DNA from: Anaerolineales bacterium
Lineage (GTDB): Bacteria > Chloroflexota > Anaerolineae > Anaerolineales > UBA11579
Assembly: GCA_019637755.1 (NCBI GenBank)
Contig: JAHBVC010000001.1
Location: 682,001-746,000 of the forward strand
Reading direction: 5' to 3'
DNA: 64,000 nucleotides
Below the pieces are notes generated by a model. The model saw only the letters and a program-made list of their open reading frames with translations, was not told the origin of the DNA and did not search any database. The position numbers and the translations under genes were made by a program. Of this stretch, positions 4,552 through 62,525 are shown piece after piece (position 1 is the stretch's first letter; each line of letters opens with the position of its first letter).

Positions 4552-4620
4552 TGTCATTCCGAGCGGGTTTTGAAAGCAACACCAGAACGCCGAACCCCGA
4601 CCAGCGAGGAATCCTTGTAG
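4552..4620. repeat. Partial copy of the GTCATTCCGAGCG...GAGGAATCC repeat
   Basis: The left part of the repeat unit is present (GTCATTCCGAGCG, then CCAGCGAGGAATCC) without its right arm. It lies upstream of the small plus-strand membrane protein gene and is probably a decayed solo copy of the intergenic repeat family. Confidence 0.6.
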
Positions 4621-4669
4621 CCTGAGCTTCCACATGGTGCCAGTTTTCAGCGCAGCGCGGCGAAATCCC

Positions 4670-6754: not shown

Positions 6755-6963
6755 CTAAGGCTGTGTATTCGTCGCATAGCCTTCAAGCAGAGGTAAGCCG
6801 TCTTCTCGTATTCCATCGAAATGAAACTGGATGGCTTCCCCTGAATGTTCTTGATGGCCTCTTCACGCGTTTCGCCCACCGCTACACAGCCGTCTATATC
6901 GGGTGCGTAGGCAGAGAAGCCATGTTCCGTTTTCTCAATGACAATTAAGTAGCGTCGCTCCAT
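6755..6963 (-). pseudogene. Frameshifted hicB-like copy
   Basis: The first 40 codons (MERRYLIVIEK, then YAPDIDGCVAVGE) closely match the intact HicB-like gene 120 bases upstream. Two extra G residues near 6838-6841 throw the reading frame. In the shifted frame the normal C-terminal part resumes (EAIQFHFDGIREDGLPL) and runs to a stop at 6755. As it stands the first frame would give a different tail ending at 6751. It lies 1 base after a duplicated enolase 3' end, copying the eno-hicB arrangement. Confidence 0.8.
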
Positions 6964-6964
6964 T

Positions 6965-7056
6965 CTACCGCCCCAGCGCCGCCCATCCTGCGTACTGGGC
7001 GGTGGCACCCAGCTCCTCCTCTATGCGTAGGAGTTGCACGCTTCGCTTGTGAAACT
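6965..7056 (-). pseudogene. Duplicated 3' end of an enolase gene
   Basis: Read on the minus strand, this stretch encodes [10 protein letters not shown], then YAGWAALGR and a stop, matching the C terminus of the intact enolase ([19 protein letters not shown]). The DNA aligns with the real eno end at roughly three quarters of positions, so it is a diverged copy, not a recent duplication. Upstream of it no further enolase sequence is present. Confidence 0.8.
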
Positions 7057-7077
7057 TCGGCGGGCTAAGTAGGCTTG

Positions 7078-7287
7078 CTAAACCGCCACGTATTCGGCGC
7101 TGGCGTAACCTTCTGGCAGAGGTAGGCCATCTTCTCGCATCCCATCGAAATGGAACTGTATAGCTTCCTGCATATTCTTGATAACTTCTTCGCTGGTTTC
7201 GCCCGCAGCTACACAGCCGTCTATATCGGGCGCGTAGGCTGAGTAACCATTAACTGCTTTCTCGATGACAATCAGGTAGCGCTGCAT
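7078..7287 (-). CDS. HicB-like antitoxin-family protein
   Basis: A 69-residue protein with the typical single HicB fold: YLIVIEK strand, YAPDIDGCVAAG and a helical EEVIKNMQEAIQFHFD segment. HicB proteins usually neutralise a HicA mRNA interferase, but no hicA is visible next to it and the C-terminal DNA-binding extension of many HicB proteins is absent. The ATG at 7287 has GAGG just upstream and lies 5 bases after the enolase stop, so it is probably co-transcribed with eno. It could be an orphan HicB-fold protein with another role. Confidence 0.8.
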   Translation of the reverse strand: MQRYLIVIEKAVNGYSAYAPDIDGCVAAGETSEEVIKNMQEAIQFHFDGMREDGLPLPEGYASAEYVAV

Positions 7288-7292
7288 ATCCT

Positions 7293-8597
<1,305 letters not shown>

Positions 8598-25922: not shown

Positions 25923-26009
<87 letters not shown>

Positions 26010-26412: not shown

Positions 26413-26647
26413 GACCCTGTTTTTTACGCCCCTTCTCTTTTTATTTCTTAGGGGCTCCACCCCTATGACCCCGCAGGGTGAACCAAAGTTGGTTCCCCCT
26501 GACCCCCTCCGCAAAGCGTTCGGCCCGGGTTGTGCAACCCTAGGCAACTTCTGAGGGTCCTGCGCCGCAAGTTGTGATGACTTGCAATTGACTTGAATGA
26601 AAGGGAATGGACGCTAAGCAAAAGCCGCGCACAGCAGCGAAACCTAA
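26413..26647. other. Non-coding region with short hairpins
   Basis: The stretch has C-rich blocks and small inverted repeats, e.g. GGGTTGTGCAACCC at 26528-26541 and GAACC/GGTTC near 26477-26495. I see no gene; it separates the membrane protein promoter from the repeat array. Confidence 0.5.
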
Positions 26648-27264
26648 ACTGTGCATCCTGAGCAAAGCGAAGGATCCTTGCTGGCGAGTTATAAACACAC
26701 GCTACTTTGGAAGACGTGCTTATAAGGATTCCTCCCTTAAGCGGGTTCGGCGTGCGGGTGATGATTTCAGCACCCGGTCGGAATGACACATGGACAAAAC
26801 TAACTGTGCATCCTGAGTGAAGCGAAGGATCCTTGTGGGTCCTGTTAAAAATGATGCTGTTTCGGAAGACAGGCCTATAAGGATTCCTCCCTAGTCTGGG
26901 TTCGGCGGTCTGGTGTTGGTTTTAATACCCAGTCGGAATGACACATGGGTACAGCCTGACATTGTGTCATCCTGAGCGAAGCAAGGAATCCTTGTGGGGC
27001 CTGTTAAAAATGCACACATTTTGGAAGATATGCCTATAAGGATTCCTCCCTGAAGCGGGTTCGGCGTGCGGGTGGTGACTTAGGCACCCGGTCGGAATGA
27101 CACGTGGCATAGCCTACCATTGTGTCATCCTGAGCGAAGCGAAGGATCCTCTGCGGGCCAGTTTAAAAATGGCGCTATTTCCGAAGATAAGCCAATAAGG
27201 ATTCCTCCCTGATGTGGGTTCGGCGTGCGGGCGGTGATCTAGGCACCCGGTCGGAATGACACAT
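26648..27264. repeat. Array of four tandem palindromic repeats, about 157 bp each (family B)
   Basis: Four copies begin near 26648, 26806, 26963 and 27120. Each starts GTCATCCTGAGCGAAGCGA with AAGGATCCTT and ends AAGGATTCCTCCC...CGGTCGGAATGACAC, so its ends are inverted repeats of each other. Ends and layout resemble family A at 909-1931, but the middle sequence and unit length differ. Confidence 0.9.
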
Positions 27265-27270
27265 GGTGTA

Positions 27271-54045: not shown

Positions 54046-54654
54046 CTAGCGGGTTTTCTGTGCCAGTACGCCAATAAATGTACCGAACAGGTACGAGGTG
54101 TGGCGCACCGGCTGCAGCCCGGCGCCGGCCAGCAGGCTGCGCAATTGTGCCAGGCTGTACACGCGCCCCAGCCAGGCGCGCGTGCGCGCAGAGGGCAGCA
54201 GGCGCAGCAGCCCGGCCAGCCCGTACCGGCTAGGCACCCCGACGAAGACCATGCCGCCAGGCTTGGCCAGGCGCGCCATGCAGGCCACGGCCTGCTCGGG
54301 GTTATCAATCTCCTCGATCGAAGAGGAGTTCCACACTAAATCCAACGACTCGGGTTGAATCGCCGGGCGGAATAGATCGGTCAGCAGGAAGGCGGCCTGA
54401 AACGCGGGAATGTGTGCCTGGCGGTAATCCTCAAGGTTTAGATCGGCGGCGATGCTCAGGCCCACCTGCGGAAACTGGCTGAGCAAGTGCGCGGCAAAGC
54501 CGCTGCCGCAGGCTACTTCGGCCAGGCGCAACCCCTGGCGCCCTTCCAGCACGGCGCGCTGCAGGAAGCTCACCAGACCACGGTTCATTTGCAAACGCAG
54601 CCATTGGTAGGGGCGCGTAGCTTCCAGGGCATCCAACCAGATTCGTTCAGTCAT
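54046..54654 (-). CDS. Class I SAM-dependent methyltransferase
   Basis: A 202-residue Rossmann methyltransferase: motif I LAEVACGSGFAAHLLS (the usual ExGxGxG reads EVACGSG), acidic post-I DLNLEDY, motif IV LDLVWNSSSIEEI and GGMVFVGVPSR. Substrate unknown. It is the last gene of a three-gene minus-strand unit with another methyltransferase and a Dpm1-like transferase, overlapping its neighbour by 8 bases, so a lipid-linked or surface sugar substrate is plausible. Confidence 0.82.
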   Translation of the reverse strand: MTERIWLDALEATRPYQWLRLQMNRGLVSFLQRAVLEGRQGLRLAEVACGSGFAAHLLSQFPQVGLSIAADLNLEDYRQAHIPAFQAAFLLTDLFRPAIQPESLDLVWNSSSIEEIDNPEQAVACMARLAKPGGMVFVGVPSRYGLAGLLRLLPSARTRAWLGRVYSLAQLRSLLAGAGLQPVRHTSYLFGTFIGVLAQKTR

Positions 54655-55372
54655 TTTTTCTCACCACCACCAATACGGAAGTGCCGATGGGTAAGTTTAC
54701 CCAGCGCAGCACTTGCATTTCCAACCACGAGAGCCAGTATAAGGGTTCATTGATTAGGCCAGGGAAAAGGCGCACATCGGAGCGACTGACGCCTTGACCG
54801 GGTTTGTTAAACAGCTTGCGCAGGGCCATCAAAGGAAATAAAAGGAAGAAGAGATAGCTGCCCCGCAGAAACTGCACCGGCTGGCCGGCGAACAGGCTGC
54901 GCAGTTGCGTGAGATTGAAGCGGCGTACGGAGTTGACCGCGCGGTCGTGCTCACTGTAGAGCCACTGGTGGGCGGCCATCAGGAACAGGGCCTGGCCGCC
55001 GGGGCGTAGCACGCGCAGAGCATTCGCAACCAACTCGTGCGGATTCACCGAACCGACCTCGAGCACATCAATGCAAGTGAGCAGATCGAAGCTATTGGCG
55101 GCAAAGGGCAACTGGTTGCCGCTGGCGCGCAGCACTGGGCCAACCTGGCGCGCCTGGCTGAAGCGCACGGCTTCGCTGGCGTAATCCAAGCCGGTGACCT
55201 GGTAGCCGGCACGCTGCAGCGCGCTGAGCAGGCCGCCGGTGCCACAGCCCAGCTCCAGCAGGCGCTGGCCGGAAGGCGTGGGCAGCAAGCGCCGCACCGC
55301 CAAGTGAACCGCGCGCAGCCACCACAAGCGCTGCTCGGCAGCATGCAGATACTGGTATTCAGCCGCCTGCAT
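54647..55372 (-). CDS. Class I SAM-dependent methyltransferase, UbiE/COQ5-like
   Basis: A 241-residue protein with motif I LLELGCGTGGLLSAL (about 38-52), VTGLDYASEAVRFSQ, DLLTCIDVLEVG and RVLRPGGQALFLM. The C-terminal quarter is hydrophobic and basic (YLFFLLFPLMALRKLF), suggesting membrane association. It overlaps both neighbours by a few bases (ATG within the Dpm1-like stop region), so the three genes form one translationally coupled operon likely making a modified polyprenyl-sugar. Confidence 0.85.
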   Translation of the reverse strand: MQAAEYQYLHAAEQRLWWLRAVHLAVRRLLPTPSGQRLLELGCGTGGLLSALQRAGYQVTGLDYASEAVRFSQARQVGPVLRASGNQLPFAANSFDLLTCIDVLEVGSVNPHELVANALRVLRPGGQALFLMAAHQWLYSEHDRAVNSVRRFNLTQLRSLFAGQPVQFLRGSYLFFLLFPLMALRKLFNKPGQGVSRSDVRLFPGLINEPLYWLSWLEMQVLRWVNLPIGTSVLVVVRKND

Positions 55373-57957: not shown

Positions 57958-58953
57958 CTAGGCAGATTCGCGGATCACCAGTTCGGAAGGAAGTATCTTT
58001 GAGAGCGGCTGTGTTGGCTGGCGCCCGATCAGCTGCATGAGCATATCCACCGCGTGGCGCCCCAACTCAGCAATCGGCTGCGCAATGGTGGTGAGCGCTG
58101 GCTTGTGGTTGGCTGCAAAGGGCGCGTCATCAAAACCCACGATGGCCACATCCTGTGGCACACGCATGCCCTGCTCGTGTAGGTAACGGATGGCTCCGGC
58201 GGCCATGGCATCGTTAGTGGCAAAGACCGCATCTGGCCTGTAGGGCGCGATCTTTTGCATGGCCGTATACCCGCCCTCTTCTACAAAACCACCCGCGGCA
58301 ATCAGGTTCTCGTCCACCGTTATGCCTGCCTCGCCCAGCGCGGCACGGTAAGCCTCGAGGCGCTGGCGCTGAACCAGAGTGCCCTCCACGCCGGTGATGG
58401 TGGCAATCCGCTTATGGCCAGTTGCGATGAGGTAGTTGATGGCCCGGCGGGTGCCCTCTTCATTATCAATATCCACATAGTTAACCGGCAGTGTGCCCGG
58501 ATAACGGCCAATGAGGACAAAAGGGATCTGCGACTGGTGCAGTGCGGCGACGATCGGATCACGGTCTTGTAGGGAGGAGACAATCACCCCGTCAAGAAGG
58601 TCGTTGCTCAGGATCTGGGTAATGCTTCTGCGTTCGTGTTCTGGCTCGCCCAACCAAAGCATCACCGAGTGATTGAGCTGATTGCTGTGATGGGTGACAC
58701 TTTGCACCAGAATTGGGAAGAAGGGCTCGCCGAACAGGCTGGAGACGCGAATGGGAATCACCAGGCCAATTACGCTGGTGCGGCCGCCAGCCAGCTTGCG
58801 GGCGGCGCGATTGGGCACGTAGTTATTTGAAGAAACTACCTCGAGCACACGCTGGCGCGTACTGTCCTTGACATTGGGGTCATTGTTGATCACCCGAGAA
58901 ACGGTGGAACGCGAAACCCCTGCTTGTCTGGCGATTTCTTCAATCCTGCTCAT
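57958..58953 (-). CDS. LacI-family transcriptional regulator
   Basis: A 331-residue repressor. Residues 1-50 are the LacI helix-turn-helix and hinge (EEIARQAGVSRSTVSRVIN, then VPNRAARKLAGG). The rest is the periplasmic-binding-protein-like effector domain (IGLVIPI, FVLIGRYPG, DAVFATNDAMAAGAI, IVGFDDAPFA). GGAGG supports the ATG at 58953. It is divergent from the FAD oxidoreductase gene and convergent with the DapA-like gene; the operator-like site between the divergent genes makes those the likely targets. The effector is probably a sugar or sugar acid. Confidence 0.95.
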   Translation of the reverse strand: MSRIEEIARQAGVSRSTVSRVINNDPNVKDSTRQRVLEVVSSNNYVPNRAARKLAGGRTSVIGLVIPIRVSSLFGEPFFPILVQSVTHHSNQLNHSVMLWLGEPEHERRSITQILSNDLLDGVIVSSLQDRDPIVAALHQSQIPFVLIGRYPGTLPVNYVDIDNEEGTRRAINYLIATGHKRIATITGVEGTLVQRQRLEAYRAALGEAGITVDENLIAAGGFVEEGGYTAMQKIAPYRPDAVFATNDAMAAGAIRYLHEQGMRVPQDVAIVGFDDAPFAANHKPALTTIAQPIAELGRHAVDMLMQLIGRQPTQPLSKILPSELVIRESA

Positions 58954-58998: not shown

Positions 58999-59016
58999 AA
59001 TTATAACGCTTACACC
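58999..59016. promoter_or_regulatory. LacI-type operator overlapping a -10 element
   Basis: TTATAACGCTTACA (59001-59014) has the central CG and right half of the LacI-family consensus TGTAANCGNTTACA, with an imperfect left half. The minus-strand TATAAT (59005-59000), the likely -10 of the regulator, lies inside it, so autoregulation plus control of the divergent oxidoreductase is plausible. Confidence 0.6.
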
Positions 59017-59043
59017 CCCGGCAACTTGTGGTTGAATCGTCCA

Positions 59044-60405
59044 ATGAGCAAACAATCTGCCGAGATCGTGATTTGTGGCGCCGGGATTTTGGGCGTTAGC
59101 ACGGCCTATGCCCTGGCACAGCAGGGCATAAAAGATATCGTCATGATCGACGAGCGCCCGCCACTGACGCTCACCTCGGATAAATCCAGCGAGTGCTACC
59201 GCAACTGGTGGCCTGGCCCGGGCGATGCGATGGTGCAGTTGATGAACCGCAGCATCACACTGATGGAAGCACGCGCCGCGGCCTGCAACAACATGTTCAA
59301 GCTCAACCGGCGCGGTTACCTCTACGTCACCACCGATGCGCAGCAGATCGCGGGTTTGCGCGCCGCGGCCGCGGAGGCCGCGCAATTGGGCGCCGGCGCC
59401 CTGCGTGAGCACGCCGCGGGCAGCGCCAGCTACCAGCCGCAGCATGCCGAGGGCTATGAAGGGCCTGACGGCTCAGACCTGATCACAGACCCGGCACTGA
59501 TCCAGCAACACTTTCCCTACCTGGCACCGGAGACGGCAGGCGTGTTGCATGTGCGCCGGGCTGGCTGGCTGAGCGCGCAGAGTTATGGCATGTGGATGTG
59601 GGAGCAAGCGCGTGCGGCTGGCGTTAAGCTGATCACAGGCTGCGTGGTGGGCGTAGACATCCAAAACGGTGCGGTGAGTGCGGTGCGTTTGGCCGATGGC
59701 ACCGTCATTGAGACCAGCACCTTTGTAAATGCCGCCGGGCCGCACATTGCCTCAGTGGGCAAGCTGCTGGGTATTGAAGTGCCCGTCTATAACGAACTGC
59801 ACCTCAAGGCGGCCTTTAACGACAACTTGGCGGCGGTGGGGCGAGATGCGCCGCTGGTGATCTGTGCCGATGAGCAGGAGTTGCCCTGGGGCGAGGACGA
59901 GCGCGCCATGCTGGCCGAGGATCCTGAGACGGCCTGGCTGCTCGGCCGCTTGCCTTCCGGCGCCCACACGCGCCCAGAAGGCGATGCCGCCGCACAAAGT
60001 ATCCTGATCCTGTGGGATGTGCACAACGAGAAAGTAGAGCCCAGCTTCCCGATCGCAGACGACCCGCTGTACGCCGAAACGGCGATCCGCGGCCTAGGGC
60101 GCATTCTGCCCGGCATGCGCGGCTACCTGGAGCGCATGCCGCGCCCCAGCGTGGATGGCGGCTACTACACCAAAACGCAGGAGAACCGCCCGCTGGCCGG
60201 GCCGCTGGGCGTGCAGGGCGCCTATATCATCGGCGCGGCGTCTGGCTACGGCATCATGGCCGCCGCCGGCCTGGCGGAGCTGGTGGCTGGGCACATTAGC
60301 GGGGGCGAGCTACCCGGCTATGCCCCGCTATTTAGCCTGCAACGTTATGAGGATGCTAGCTACCAAGCGTTACTAGCCAACTGGGGCGAGAGCTGGCAGT
60401 TGTAG
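59044..60405 (+). CDS. FAD-dependent oxidoreductase (DAO family)
   Basis: A 453-residue flavoprotein of the glycine/D-amino-acid oxidase (DAO) type. The dinucleotide fold is EIVICGAGILGVSTAYALAQQGI (seen as residues 6-28) and the second FAD contact is VNAAGPHIASVGKLLGI (about 240). It ends PLAGPLGVQGAYIIGAASGYGIMAAAGLAELVAG. Substrates of this family are secondary or tertiary amines such as sarcosine. The start at 59044 is preferred since the fold begins there; TTGAAT ends 6 bases before it. Its 3' end has a second, broken copy 650 bases downstream. Confidence 0.88.
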   Translation: MSKQSAEIVICGAGILGVSTAYALAQQGIKDIVMIDERPPLTLTSDKSSECYRNWWPGPGDAMVQLMNRSITLMEARAAACNNMFKLNRRGYLYVTTDAQQIAGLRAAAAEAAQLGAGALREHAAGSASYQPQHAEGYEGPDGSDLITDPALIQQHFPYLAPETAGVLHVRRAGWLSAQSYGMWMWEQARAAGVKLITGCVVGVDIQNGAVSAVRLADGTVIETSTFVNAAGPHIASVGKLLGIEVPVYNELHLKAAFNDNLAAVGRDAPLVICADEQELPWGEDERAMLAEDPETAWLLGRLPSGAHTRPEGDAAAQSILILWDVHNEKVEPSFPIADDPLYAETAIRGLGRILPGMRGYLERMPRPSVDGGYYTKTQENRPLAGPLGVQGAYIIGAASGYGIMAAAGLAELVAGHISGGELPGYAPLFSLQRYEDASYQALLANWGESWQL

Positions 60406-60440
60406 ATAGCAAGTGATCAACGACAGGCAGGAGGGAGAGT

Positions 60441-61004
60441 ATGCCTAGGCGAAAACGCAACACATCTGACGCAGCTGAGCTTGTTTGGAACATGGCATGG
60501 CTTATCTTGCTGGGTTTGTTTGGCACCCTGCCCTGGCTGCGTTCCCTGGCCTATGTCTTGATCGGCGCTGGGGTAGTGGTAGTAATTTGGCGGCTGGTAC
60601 GCTACTTCAAGTTCACCCGTCCATTGAACATCGCCCAGGTCGACGAGATGAGCGGGCCAGAATTTGAGCGCTTTATTGCAAAGTTATTAGCCTACCAAGG
60701 ATATGAGGTTAGGTGCATTGGTGGGCTTGATGATTATGGTGTTGACCTGATCGCCAGCCGCGGTGGCCGCAAACACGCCATACAAGCCAAACGTTGGAAG
60801 CAACCGGTAAGCATAGAGGCGGTGCGCGCCGCCATTGCAGGCATGGCTTATCACCACTGTGATCGCGCCGTAGTGATTACGAGTAGCCACTTCACTAGAC
60901 CCGCCAAAGAGTTGGCGAGGGGGACCCAGTGTTTACTGATTGACCGCCAGCAGCTCGCCTTAGAGATTGGCAAATGGCAGCAGGCACAAAAACCTAGCTC
61001 CTAG
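60441..61004 (+). CDS. Membrane-anchored Mrr-like restriction endonuclease domain protein
   Basis: A 187-residue protein with two transmembrane helices (about 16-33 and 36-51) and a C-terminal Mrr/RecB-type nuclease domain. EMSGPEFERFIAKLL (Glu), DYGVDLIAS (Asp) and AIQAKRW (Q-x-K) give the catalytic E-D-QxK set, followed by YHHCDRAVVITSSHFTRPAKELA. Such proteins may cleave foreign or damaged DNA at the membrane. AGGAGG precedes the ATG. Base use is more AT-rich than in its neighbours, and the gene is bracketed by the intact and remnant 3' ends of the FAD oxidoreductase gene. Confidence 0.85.
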   Translation: MPRRKRNTSDAAELVWNMAWLILLGLFGTLPWLRSLAYVLIGAGVVVVIWRLVRYFKFTRPLNIAQVDEMSGPEFERFIAKLLAYQGYEVRCIGGLDDYGVDLIASRGGRKHAIQAKRWKQPVSIEAVRAAIAGMAYHHCDRAVVITSSHFTRPAKELARGTQCLLIDRQQLALEIGKWQQAQKPSS

Positions 61005-61078
61005 ACTATGCCCTAGCGCGCTACCAAGATGCTAGCTACCAGCGGCGCGGCTAACTGGGGCGAGAGCTGGCAGTTGTA
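61004..61078 (+). pseudogene. Diverged copy of the FAD oxidoreductase 3' end
   Basis: Directly after the Mrr-like stop the sequence encodes DYALARYQDASYQ, then after a frame change ANWGESWQL and a stop. The intact oxidoreductase ends RYEDASYQALLANWGESWQL. The final 26 bases before the stop's last base are identical in both (61053-61078 against 60378-60403); the part before has gaps. It is a displaced or duplicated gene end. Confidence 0.85.
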
Positions 61079-61154
61079 AACACCAGTGATCAGTGATGAG
61101 TAATCAGTAATAAGGAACCGGTAACTCAGTAACTGATTGGTTCCTAGCAGTTAC
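61079..61154. repeat. Simple GTGATCA/TAATCAGTAA repeats and a hairpin
   Basis: Degenerate GTGATCA, GTAATCA and GTAACT repeats run to about 61135. AGGAACC/GGTTCCT forms a stem at about 61113-61146. It may act as a weak terminator for the converging mannosyltransferase gene. Confidence 0.5.
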
Positions 61155-62453
61155 CTATCCCGCCCACATATCAAAGCTAAACAGCGCTGCCATGATGCTC
61201 ATCAAGAGCAGGCTAACCATGCTCCAGGAGCGGTCAAAGGCGGCATGCTTGCCGGCACGCGCCAACAACAGGAATACCGAAGGCGCCACGAGAATGTAAC
61301 GATACATCCCCTGCGCCTGACCACTGGTGAAGGAGACGAACACCACCGCCAGGCCGAACAAAGCCAGATCCGGATGGCGGCGCAAACCGAGCAGGCAGGC
61401 CACAAAGCCGGAGAGGATGCCGGCTAGCTCCAGCGCGTAGTACGCCGAGGATTGCGACACGCCGGCACGCAGAGTCTCGAGCACCACGCCCCAGTTGTAA
61501 ACGGTCTTACCCCATTCCAGCAAACCGCGGCCAAACCACACATCTTCCACAATGGTGAAGGCCTGCCCATAGTACGAGATACGCCACAGGCCAAAGGCCA
61601 GCACGGGTGCAGAGACCGTCAGCAGGCCAGCTAGCGCCCGCCAGGAGAATTGCTTAGGCTGCAACTGTTTCCATGCCCCACTTTGCACCCAGTGATACAG
61701 CAGCGGCAGCACCAGCAAAACGCCCACCGCACGCGCATAGGTAGCCAGCACAGCCAGTGCAGCCGCCCAGGCGAACCGCTTGCGCCGCGCCATCACGAGC
61801 GACCAGAAGGCCAGCCCCACAAACAAGCCCTCGGTATACACCTGTGCGAGGAAGAACCCGCTGGGGAAGATGACCAAATAGAAAGCCGCCCGCAACCCAC
61901 CCTCTTCGCCCAGCTCATCTTTGGCCAACTGATACAAGGCCAGCATGCCCGCCAGCGCGCCCAGCAGCGAGATGGTGACGCCGGCCAGGCTGGCGGTGGC
62001 GACCGGGTTCATACCCAGCAAACTAAGCGGCGCGCTAAGGGCGCGCATGCTCAGCGGGTACAAGGGGAAGAAGGCCAGGCTCATCGAGAGGCGTTCGCCA
62101 GGCGCCACGCTGGCCGGCGGGCTGAAGGGCCAGAATGGCAGTTGTGCATTGGCGCTATCAAAGTAGCCATCCACCTGGCGGATATTGCTGGAATGGTAGC
62201 CCTCGTTGGCAATCGCCAGATAAAACTCTGAATCCCAGGATACATGGGTATTCAGAAAAGGTTCGTTCAGGTAGAGCTTATCAGCCTGGGCACCGGCGCG
62301 CGTCTCTTGCGGCGTCCATTCAATAGCATAGTCCGGCCGCGCCAGCTCCAGCCGGGCGGGCAGATAGGCCTGGAAGGCGAGCATTGCAAAAACCCAACCG
62401 GCCCAGATCCAGGCCACGGTGCGATGAGCGGGAGTATTGAAAAATGAGCGCAT
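61155..62453 (-). CDS. Gpi18/PIG-V-like mannosyltransferase (GT-C)
   Basis: A 432-residue polytopic protein, about ten hydrophobic segments. The GT-C signature is the first extracellular loop with WDSEFYLAIANEGY (about 72-85, catalytic Asp), then FFPLYPLSMR and FPSGFFLAQVYTEGLF, all typical of bacterial proteins related to Gpi18/PIG-V mannosyltransferases that use polyprenyl-phosphate-mannose. The Dpm1-like synthase 5 kb away could supply that donor. Confidence 0.85.
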   Translation of the reverse strand: MRSFFNTPAHRTVAWIWAGWVFAMLAFQAYLPARLELARPDYAIEWTPQETRAGAQADKLYLNEPFLNTHVSWDSEFYLAIANEGYHSSNIRQVDGYFDSANAQLPFWPFSPPASVAPGERLSMSLAFFPLYPLSMRALSAPLSLLGMNPVATASLAGVTISLLGALAGMLALYQLAKDELGEEGGLRAAFYLVIFPSGFFLAQVYTEGLFVGLAFWSLVMARRKRFAWAAALAVLATYARAVGVLLVLPLLYHWVQSGAWKQLQPKQFSWRALAGLLTVSAPVLAFGLWRISYYGQAFTIVEDVWFGRGLLEWGKTVYNWGVVLETLRAGVSQSSAYYALELAGILSGFVACLLGLRRHPDLALFGLAVVFVSFTSGQAQGMYRYILVAPSVFLLLARAGKHAAFDRSWSMVSLLLMSIMAALFSFDMWAG

Positions 62454-62496
62454 GATGATTCCTTGCTAAAAGATGGCGAACTATACACCAGTCTGC

Positions 62497-62525
62497 TTGA
62501 CATTCGGGCACTTCCCCTGTATGCT
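62497..62525 (+). promoter_or_regulatory. Promoter of the DEAD-box helicase gene
   Basis: TTGACA (62497-62502) and TATGCT (62520-62525) are exactly 17 bases apart, giving a transcript with a leader of about 140 bases. The leader has a CCGCCACG/CGTGGCGG hairpin at 62616-62633. Long leaders are common in cold-inducible helicase genes. Confidence 0.8.

Follow-up and report, generated by a model that had tools for sequence, protein, structure and literature searches.

A displaced 3′ end of an oxidoreductase gene beyond an Mrr-like nuclease gene in an uncultured Anaerolineales lineage: a probable scar of recombination between diverged alleles

Gene order and an extended repeat at the locus

The window analyzed in this study is a 64,000-nucleotide stretch on contig 1 (1.59 Mb) of a metagenome-type Anaerolineales assembly, which consists of 2 contigs with a total of 2.26 Mb and has a completeness of 96.8% and a contamination of 1.6%. 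On its plus strand, a gene for a FAD-dependent oxidoreductase of the DAO family (ox; 59,044–60,405; PF01266, 110.7 bits) is followed by an Mrr-like nuclease gene (60,441–61,004; 187 aa), a second copy of the ox 3′ end, 75 bp of noncoding sequence, and a convergent, membrane glycosyltransferase-like gene on the minus strand (gt; 61,155–62,453; PIG-V-like, with a weak match to PF04188). The current ox end encodes LQRYEDASYQALLANWGESWQL before its stop codon, the last residues being ANWGESWQL.

The Mrr-like protein starts with hydrophobic N-terminal stretches, which are followed by an Mrr_cat domain (PF04471, 99.6 bits vs. a cut-off of 21). It contains the D...QxK core (GVDL...IQAKRW), which is conserved in the alignment of its homologues, and an AGGAGG-like Shine-Dalgarno motif is located upstream of the gene. 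A sequence search for a relative with a solved structure found none. Judged from these features, the product is probably a membrane-anchored nuclease of the Mrr type that may serve in restriction or defence.

An initial annotation of this DNA had claimed that the 3′ end of ox is repeated directly behind the Mrr-like gene. This repeat is real and longer than the 26 bp originally noted. The 26-mer AACTGGGGCGAGAGCTGGCAGTTGTA occurs at 60,379–60,404 and 61,053–61,078, with no third copy in the 2.26-Mb genome even when up to 3 mismatches were allowed. Local alignment of the 700-bp flanks of the Mrr-like gene yielded a score of 75, compared to at most 33 for 100 shuffled sequences. The similarity extends over approximately 65–90 bp, including ~20 bp beyond the stop codons up to a common AGTGATCA. 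Since AGTGATCA has only six occurrences on both strands of the 64-kb window, the extension of the repeat past the stop codons is unlikely to be due to chance. Copy 1 (60,337–60,423, plus strand) comprises the last ~69 bp of ox and ~18 bp of its 3′ flank, with AGTGATCA at 60,412. The ungapped blocks of the two copies (60,337–60,365 with 61,013–61,041, and 60,376–60,405 with 61,050–61,079) are identical at 49 of 59 positions.

Copy 2, hereafter the remnant, lies on the plus strand at 61,013–61,079 and is separated from the Mrr stop codon (61,002–61,004) by an 8-bp junction (61,005–61,012); a weaker match reaches back to ~61,005, beside the stop codon, and the remnant possibly starts there. It encodes LARYQDASYQ..ANWGESWQL and a stop codon with a 2-nt frameshift. 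With its 2-nt deletion and an ~11–12-nt gap, it does not form an ox open reading frame and could not be translated as an ox end; the remnant is noncoding, and its decay has begun via small deletions. The 26 identical bases were confirmed, but they are less telling than they had seemed: the same codons hardly vary across all congeners, and the identity is therefore weak evidence of recency. The genome contains no ox paralogue that could have donated the remnant, as all other matches have 25–31% identity.

The noncoding flank of the remnant (61,080–61,154) consists of a degenerate 7-bp repeat, (CAGTGAT)n, at 61,083–61,110 and of inverted-repeat sequence, and has few related copies in the genome. 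Its fold z-score as a structured RNA or terminator was not significant (−1.2), no terminator-like site was found in it, and Rfam gave no match in 59,000–62,500. The whole genome contains 11 sites with at most 1 mismatch from CAGTGATCAGTGAT, and stretches like (CAGTGAT)n also occur in congeners and other members of the order. Other repeats in the window are six tandem copies of a ~172-bp unit starting with TGTCATTCCGAGCGGGTGAATAAGCC (909–1,934; 71–90% alike) with a related lone copy at 4,552–4,631, a ~330-bp block present twice in tandem at 6,840–7,364 (115 nt at 81% and 73 nt at 78%), and four tandem copies of a ~147-nt unit spaced by 155–159 nt (26,647–27,266), shortly before which lies a tRNA-Leu gene (25,923–26,009).

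The slot between ox and gt in congeners

The neighbours of the locus are syntenic in relatives. Six congeners, the window included, are syntenic for 10 kb or more on the stretch surrounding it, with gt as the fixed right-hand neighbour in all six, and ox shares 78–81% nucleotide identity with its orthologues in the five others. Beside these conserved genes, the LacI-type regulator gene adjoining ox (57,958–58,953) has no match at that place in the otherwise syntenic genome G006, and a methyltransferase gene (54,647–55,372) is absent from G007 and G008.

The comparison with relatives lacking the Mrr-like gene, which the initial annotation had proposed, showed that in three of the congeners (G004, G007, and G008) ox is directly followed by gt, with stop-to-stop gaps of 0, 16, and 30 bp, respectively. 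None of them carries a remnant; a remnant in relatives lacking the nuclease had been named beforehand as an observation that would contradict that annotation. The other two (G001 and G006) have the order ox-Mrr-gt with nothing like a second ox end. The slot thus occurs with and without Mrr, and the window is the only one of the six genomes with a remnant.

Among 400 genomes of the order, Mrr-like genes were detected in seven (E-value 1e-20), and only those of G001 and G006 are located next to ox. None of seven other Mrr loci (one each in G001, G006, G009, G010, and G309, and two in G291) has flanking repeats above those of shuffled sequences, which gives no indication of a mobile cassette. The Mrr homologues in the same slot share 66% (G006) and 59% (G001) amino acid identity with the protein from the window. 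Pairwise distances of the three Mrr proteins (0.64, 0.545, and 0.485) scale with those of the concatenated flanking proteins (0.185, 0.157, and 0.159), the ratios being nearly constant at 3.46, 3.47, and 3.05. Hence, the Mrr-like gene is probably old at this slot and was probably there before these species split; judged by these distances, it appears to have been inherited in place and not to be a new arrival. An ox tree rooted on the other congeners places the three Mrr carriers together with a support of only 43–51, and their grouping was not resolved in an unrooted concatenated tree.

These data bear on the proposal that the repeat is the footprint of the entry of the Mrr-like gene itself, either by a target duplication of ~90 bp (ox end plus flank) or as an integrase-free element carrying a replacement end. 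Such an insertion would account for direct repeats that precisely flank a restriction-type nuclease, for the intact host ox, and for the known empty site. However, G001 and G006 have Mrr in the slot without any repeat, the insertion is probably old according to the distance scaling whereas the remnant is nearly undecayed, and flanking repeats are missing at the seven other Mrr loci. The lower G+C content of the Mrr-like gene (54% vs. 61% for the window), which had been part of the proposal, was confirmed, but homologues occupy the same site in two congeners. Together with the simulations described below, this largely refutes an insertion of the Mrr-like gene as the origin of the repeat, and we regard it as quite improbable.

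Divergence of the remnant and the origin of the two ends

In the 59 ungapped columns, the remnant matches its own ox at 49 positions and the ox ends of the five congeners at 48–51 positions, while the congeners’ ox ends match each other at a mean of 50.0 positions. By this measure, the difference between the remnant and ox appears about as large as the ox difference between species. Nine of the 10 remnant differences from the current ox are bases used at that position by the ox of a congener (expected fraction for random change 0.136; binomial P = 1.4e-7), and all 19 complete remnant codons encode residues tolerated in the congeners’ ox. We simulated a duplicated ox end that changes neutrally while ox itself changes under selection, starting from two sequences and using only the 59 ungapped columns and the residues tolerated in six congeners. 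From either starting sequence, none of 20,000 simulations matched both the congener-base count and the codon tolerance. Simple tandem duplication with neutral decay, which the initial annotation had listed as a possible objection, is thus rejected. The same applies to a target duplicate made by an Mrr insertion, which would start identical and decay neutrally. These results indicate that the remnant was part of a working, diverged ox until recently and that the two ends have separate histories. Furthermore, one private codon (GCT, Ala) is found in both the remnant and the current ox end, as is the 3′ flank with AGTGATCA, which implies that the two lineages are sisters or close relatives within the genus.

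We consider it probable that the remnant is the displaced 3′ end of an allelic ox, left behind by recombination between an ox-Mrr-gt and an ox-gt allele. The notion of a “replacement end” in the initial annotation turned out to be the best reading, the current and the stranded end being different, long-separated alleles. In this exchange, DNA from a related (sister) lineage with the other form of the site would have recombined here on the branch leading to the window. At one end, the exchange would have been homologous and located in ox, in gt, or farther out; at the other, the Mrr end would have been joined illegitimately to a point that we infer to lie ~70–90 bp before the ox stop codon. A small circle integrated by a single crossover could have served as an alternative substrate with the same outcome. 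The product would be ox with the end of one allele, Mrr, the end of the other allele, and gt. The predicted donor or pre-event allele would have an ox ending in LARYQDASYQ...ANWGESWQL and a stop codon, would continue with ACACCAGTGATCAGTGATGAG into gt, and would lack Mrr. The scar is probably later than the arrival of Mrr and belongs to the window’s branch, and Mrr would be a bystander of the recombination event.

The join is located at the Mrr stop codon. The 6-bp sequence CCTAGC occurs at 60,993 and 61,012, and this repeat may represent microhomology at the join; the junction ACTATGCC also matches the ox sequence CTATGCC weakly. As to direction, the scar could equally have arisen if an ox-gt fragment lacking Mrr was inserted behind an Mrr gene that was already present. 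The last 120 bp of ox contain private changes at 10 of 85 positions compared to 5.1% in the rest of the gene (one-sided P = 0.018, uncorrected, with another ox stretch scoring higher). GC3 is 0.60 in the last full 30-codon window of ox vs. 0.87–0.93 in the two preceding windows, with values of 0.63–0.70 in other parts of the gene. This excess and the low GC3 weakly favour an imported ox end plus Mrr, and the apparent long presence of Mrr in the slot would favour a resident Mrr with an imported piece of ox end and gt. A mosaic scan of gt, in a comparison with congeners none of which is a near donor, revealed no such excess.

Four points count against recombination. The predicted donor or pre-event allele is absent among the 10 congeners, the shared Ala codon and flank imply sister lineages whereas the divergence of the rest still needs to be accounted for, the mosaic signal to be expected is weak in ox and was not seen in gt, and homology-facilitated illegitimate recombination is rare when measured, as in E. 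coli conjugation, where its frequency was low (PMC3240628).

The divergence pattern and the simulations would fit a donor allele and an old paralogue alike. The main rival of recombination is a locus of the form ox1-Mrr-ox2-gt that arose by an old tandem duplication, in which both genes were used and diverged for a long time until ox2 was recently deleted down to its last ~70 bp. It explains equally well that the differences of the remnant remained compatible with coding until recently, as well as the position of the remnant next to gt and the features that both copies have in common (private Ala codon, 3′ flank). However, a second ox is missing at this place from all five syntenic congeners despite a divergence between ox and remnant at species level, and the genome lacks an ox paralogue elsewhere. 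This scenario also calls for two rearrangements and for duplicates that persisted side by side over a long time, and we regard it as unlikely.

We give two further scenarios the same low credence, just below that of an Mrr insertion. In the first, the ox end was duplicated recently behind Mrr, and ordinary recombination with the homologous sequence of a congener later replaced the original 3′ end of ox. In that case the remnant would be native, and the ox end of today, with its low GC3, would be foreign. This calls for two independent events where one suffices, and the compositional signal is weak, given the GC3 of 0.63–0.70 elsewhere in ox. Alternatively, the assembly could be a chimera of two co-occurring strains, with ox-Mrr from one and the ox end and gt from the other. 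A metagenome-type assembly with 1.6% contamination and two ends that resemble the alleles of two lineages would agree with a chimera, but the join lies at the Mrr stop codon and not inside the shared 26–36 bp, where an assembler would switch. Moreover, the remnant has indels as in decaying DNA, and the locus lies on a 1.59-Mb contig of a two-contig assembly.

Relation to known systems

Integrative elements restore the 3′ end of the gene at tRNA and protein-gene targets. The locus resembles such insertions in that a displaced 3′ end marks its far side, and differs from them by the missing integrase, the one-gene cargo, and the non-identical ends. No recombinase- or integrase-like domain was found in the neighbouring proteins scanned (48.6–64 kb), in agreement with the initial annotation, and there are no tRNA targets within 20 kb of the locus. 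Also unlike integrative elements, no other cargo occupies the site in any of the ten congeners.

Restriction-modification genes inserted with long target duplications have been described (Nobusato et al. 2000, as cited in PMC3031569). Going by that citation, the shared feature is a restriction-type gene between long direct repeats. In such insertions the repeats are copies of the target wherever the insert is present, whereas here they are diverged alleles and two congeners (G001 and G006) have a filled slot without repeats. Also in contrast to the insertions cited there, no methyltransferase partner adjoins Mrr.

Parallels are also found in systems with displaced gene ends; the locus has the gene’s own 3′ remnant beyond new sequence and two ends of different origin. 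For the displaced C-terminal tips of rhs loci, homologous recombination, possibly via a circle, has been proposed as a model (Jackson et al. 2009, PMC2935791). The locus shares with rhs a gene that is itself intact and, behind it, a frameshifted piece of that gene’s 3′ end, which an incoming alternative end has displaced. However, rhs tips are non-homologous and arrayed with repeats of the conserved core, whereas the ends observed here are alleles of one conserved housekeeping-type gene, with a single remnant and one nuclease gene as the passenger. Displacement by homology-facilitated illegitimate recombination was proposed for the ends of type VI secretion system (T6SS) effectors in Vibrio cholerae (Kirchberger et al. 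2017, PMC5361080), and the exchange suggested here would likewise be anchored by homology at one end and joined illegitimately at the other. In the T6SS the selected cargo is an effector-immunity pair, whereas no selection for the exchange is evident in the window, where the scar is probably younger than Mrr.

A more far-reaching idea is that the ox 3′ end is a preferred docking point in the genus, where short circles or linear DNA pieces with an alternative ox end plus Mrr are exchanged between species without an integrase and shuffle a defence nuclease on and off through replacement of the gene end; this is speculative and the least probable of the scenarios considered here. The scar most likely represents a known kind of genetic accident and not a new mobile system or element. 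Its divergence pattern illustrates how a gene-end remnant can be used to separate allele exchange from simple duplication. The locus also shows that, where a solitary restriction-type nuclease is present in some genomes and absent from others, this polymorphism can leave behind a scar that can be dated in an uncultured lineage.
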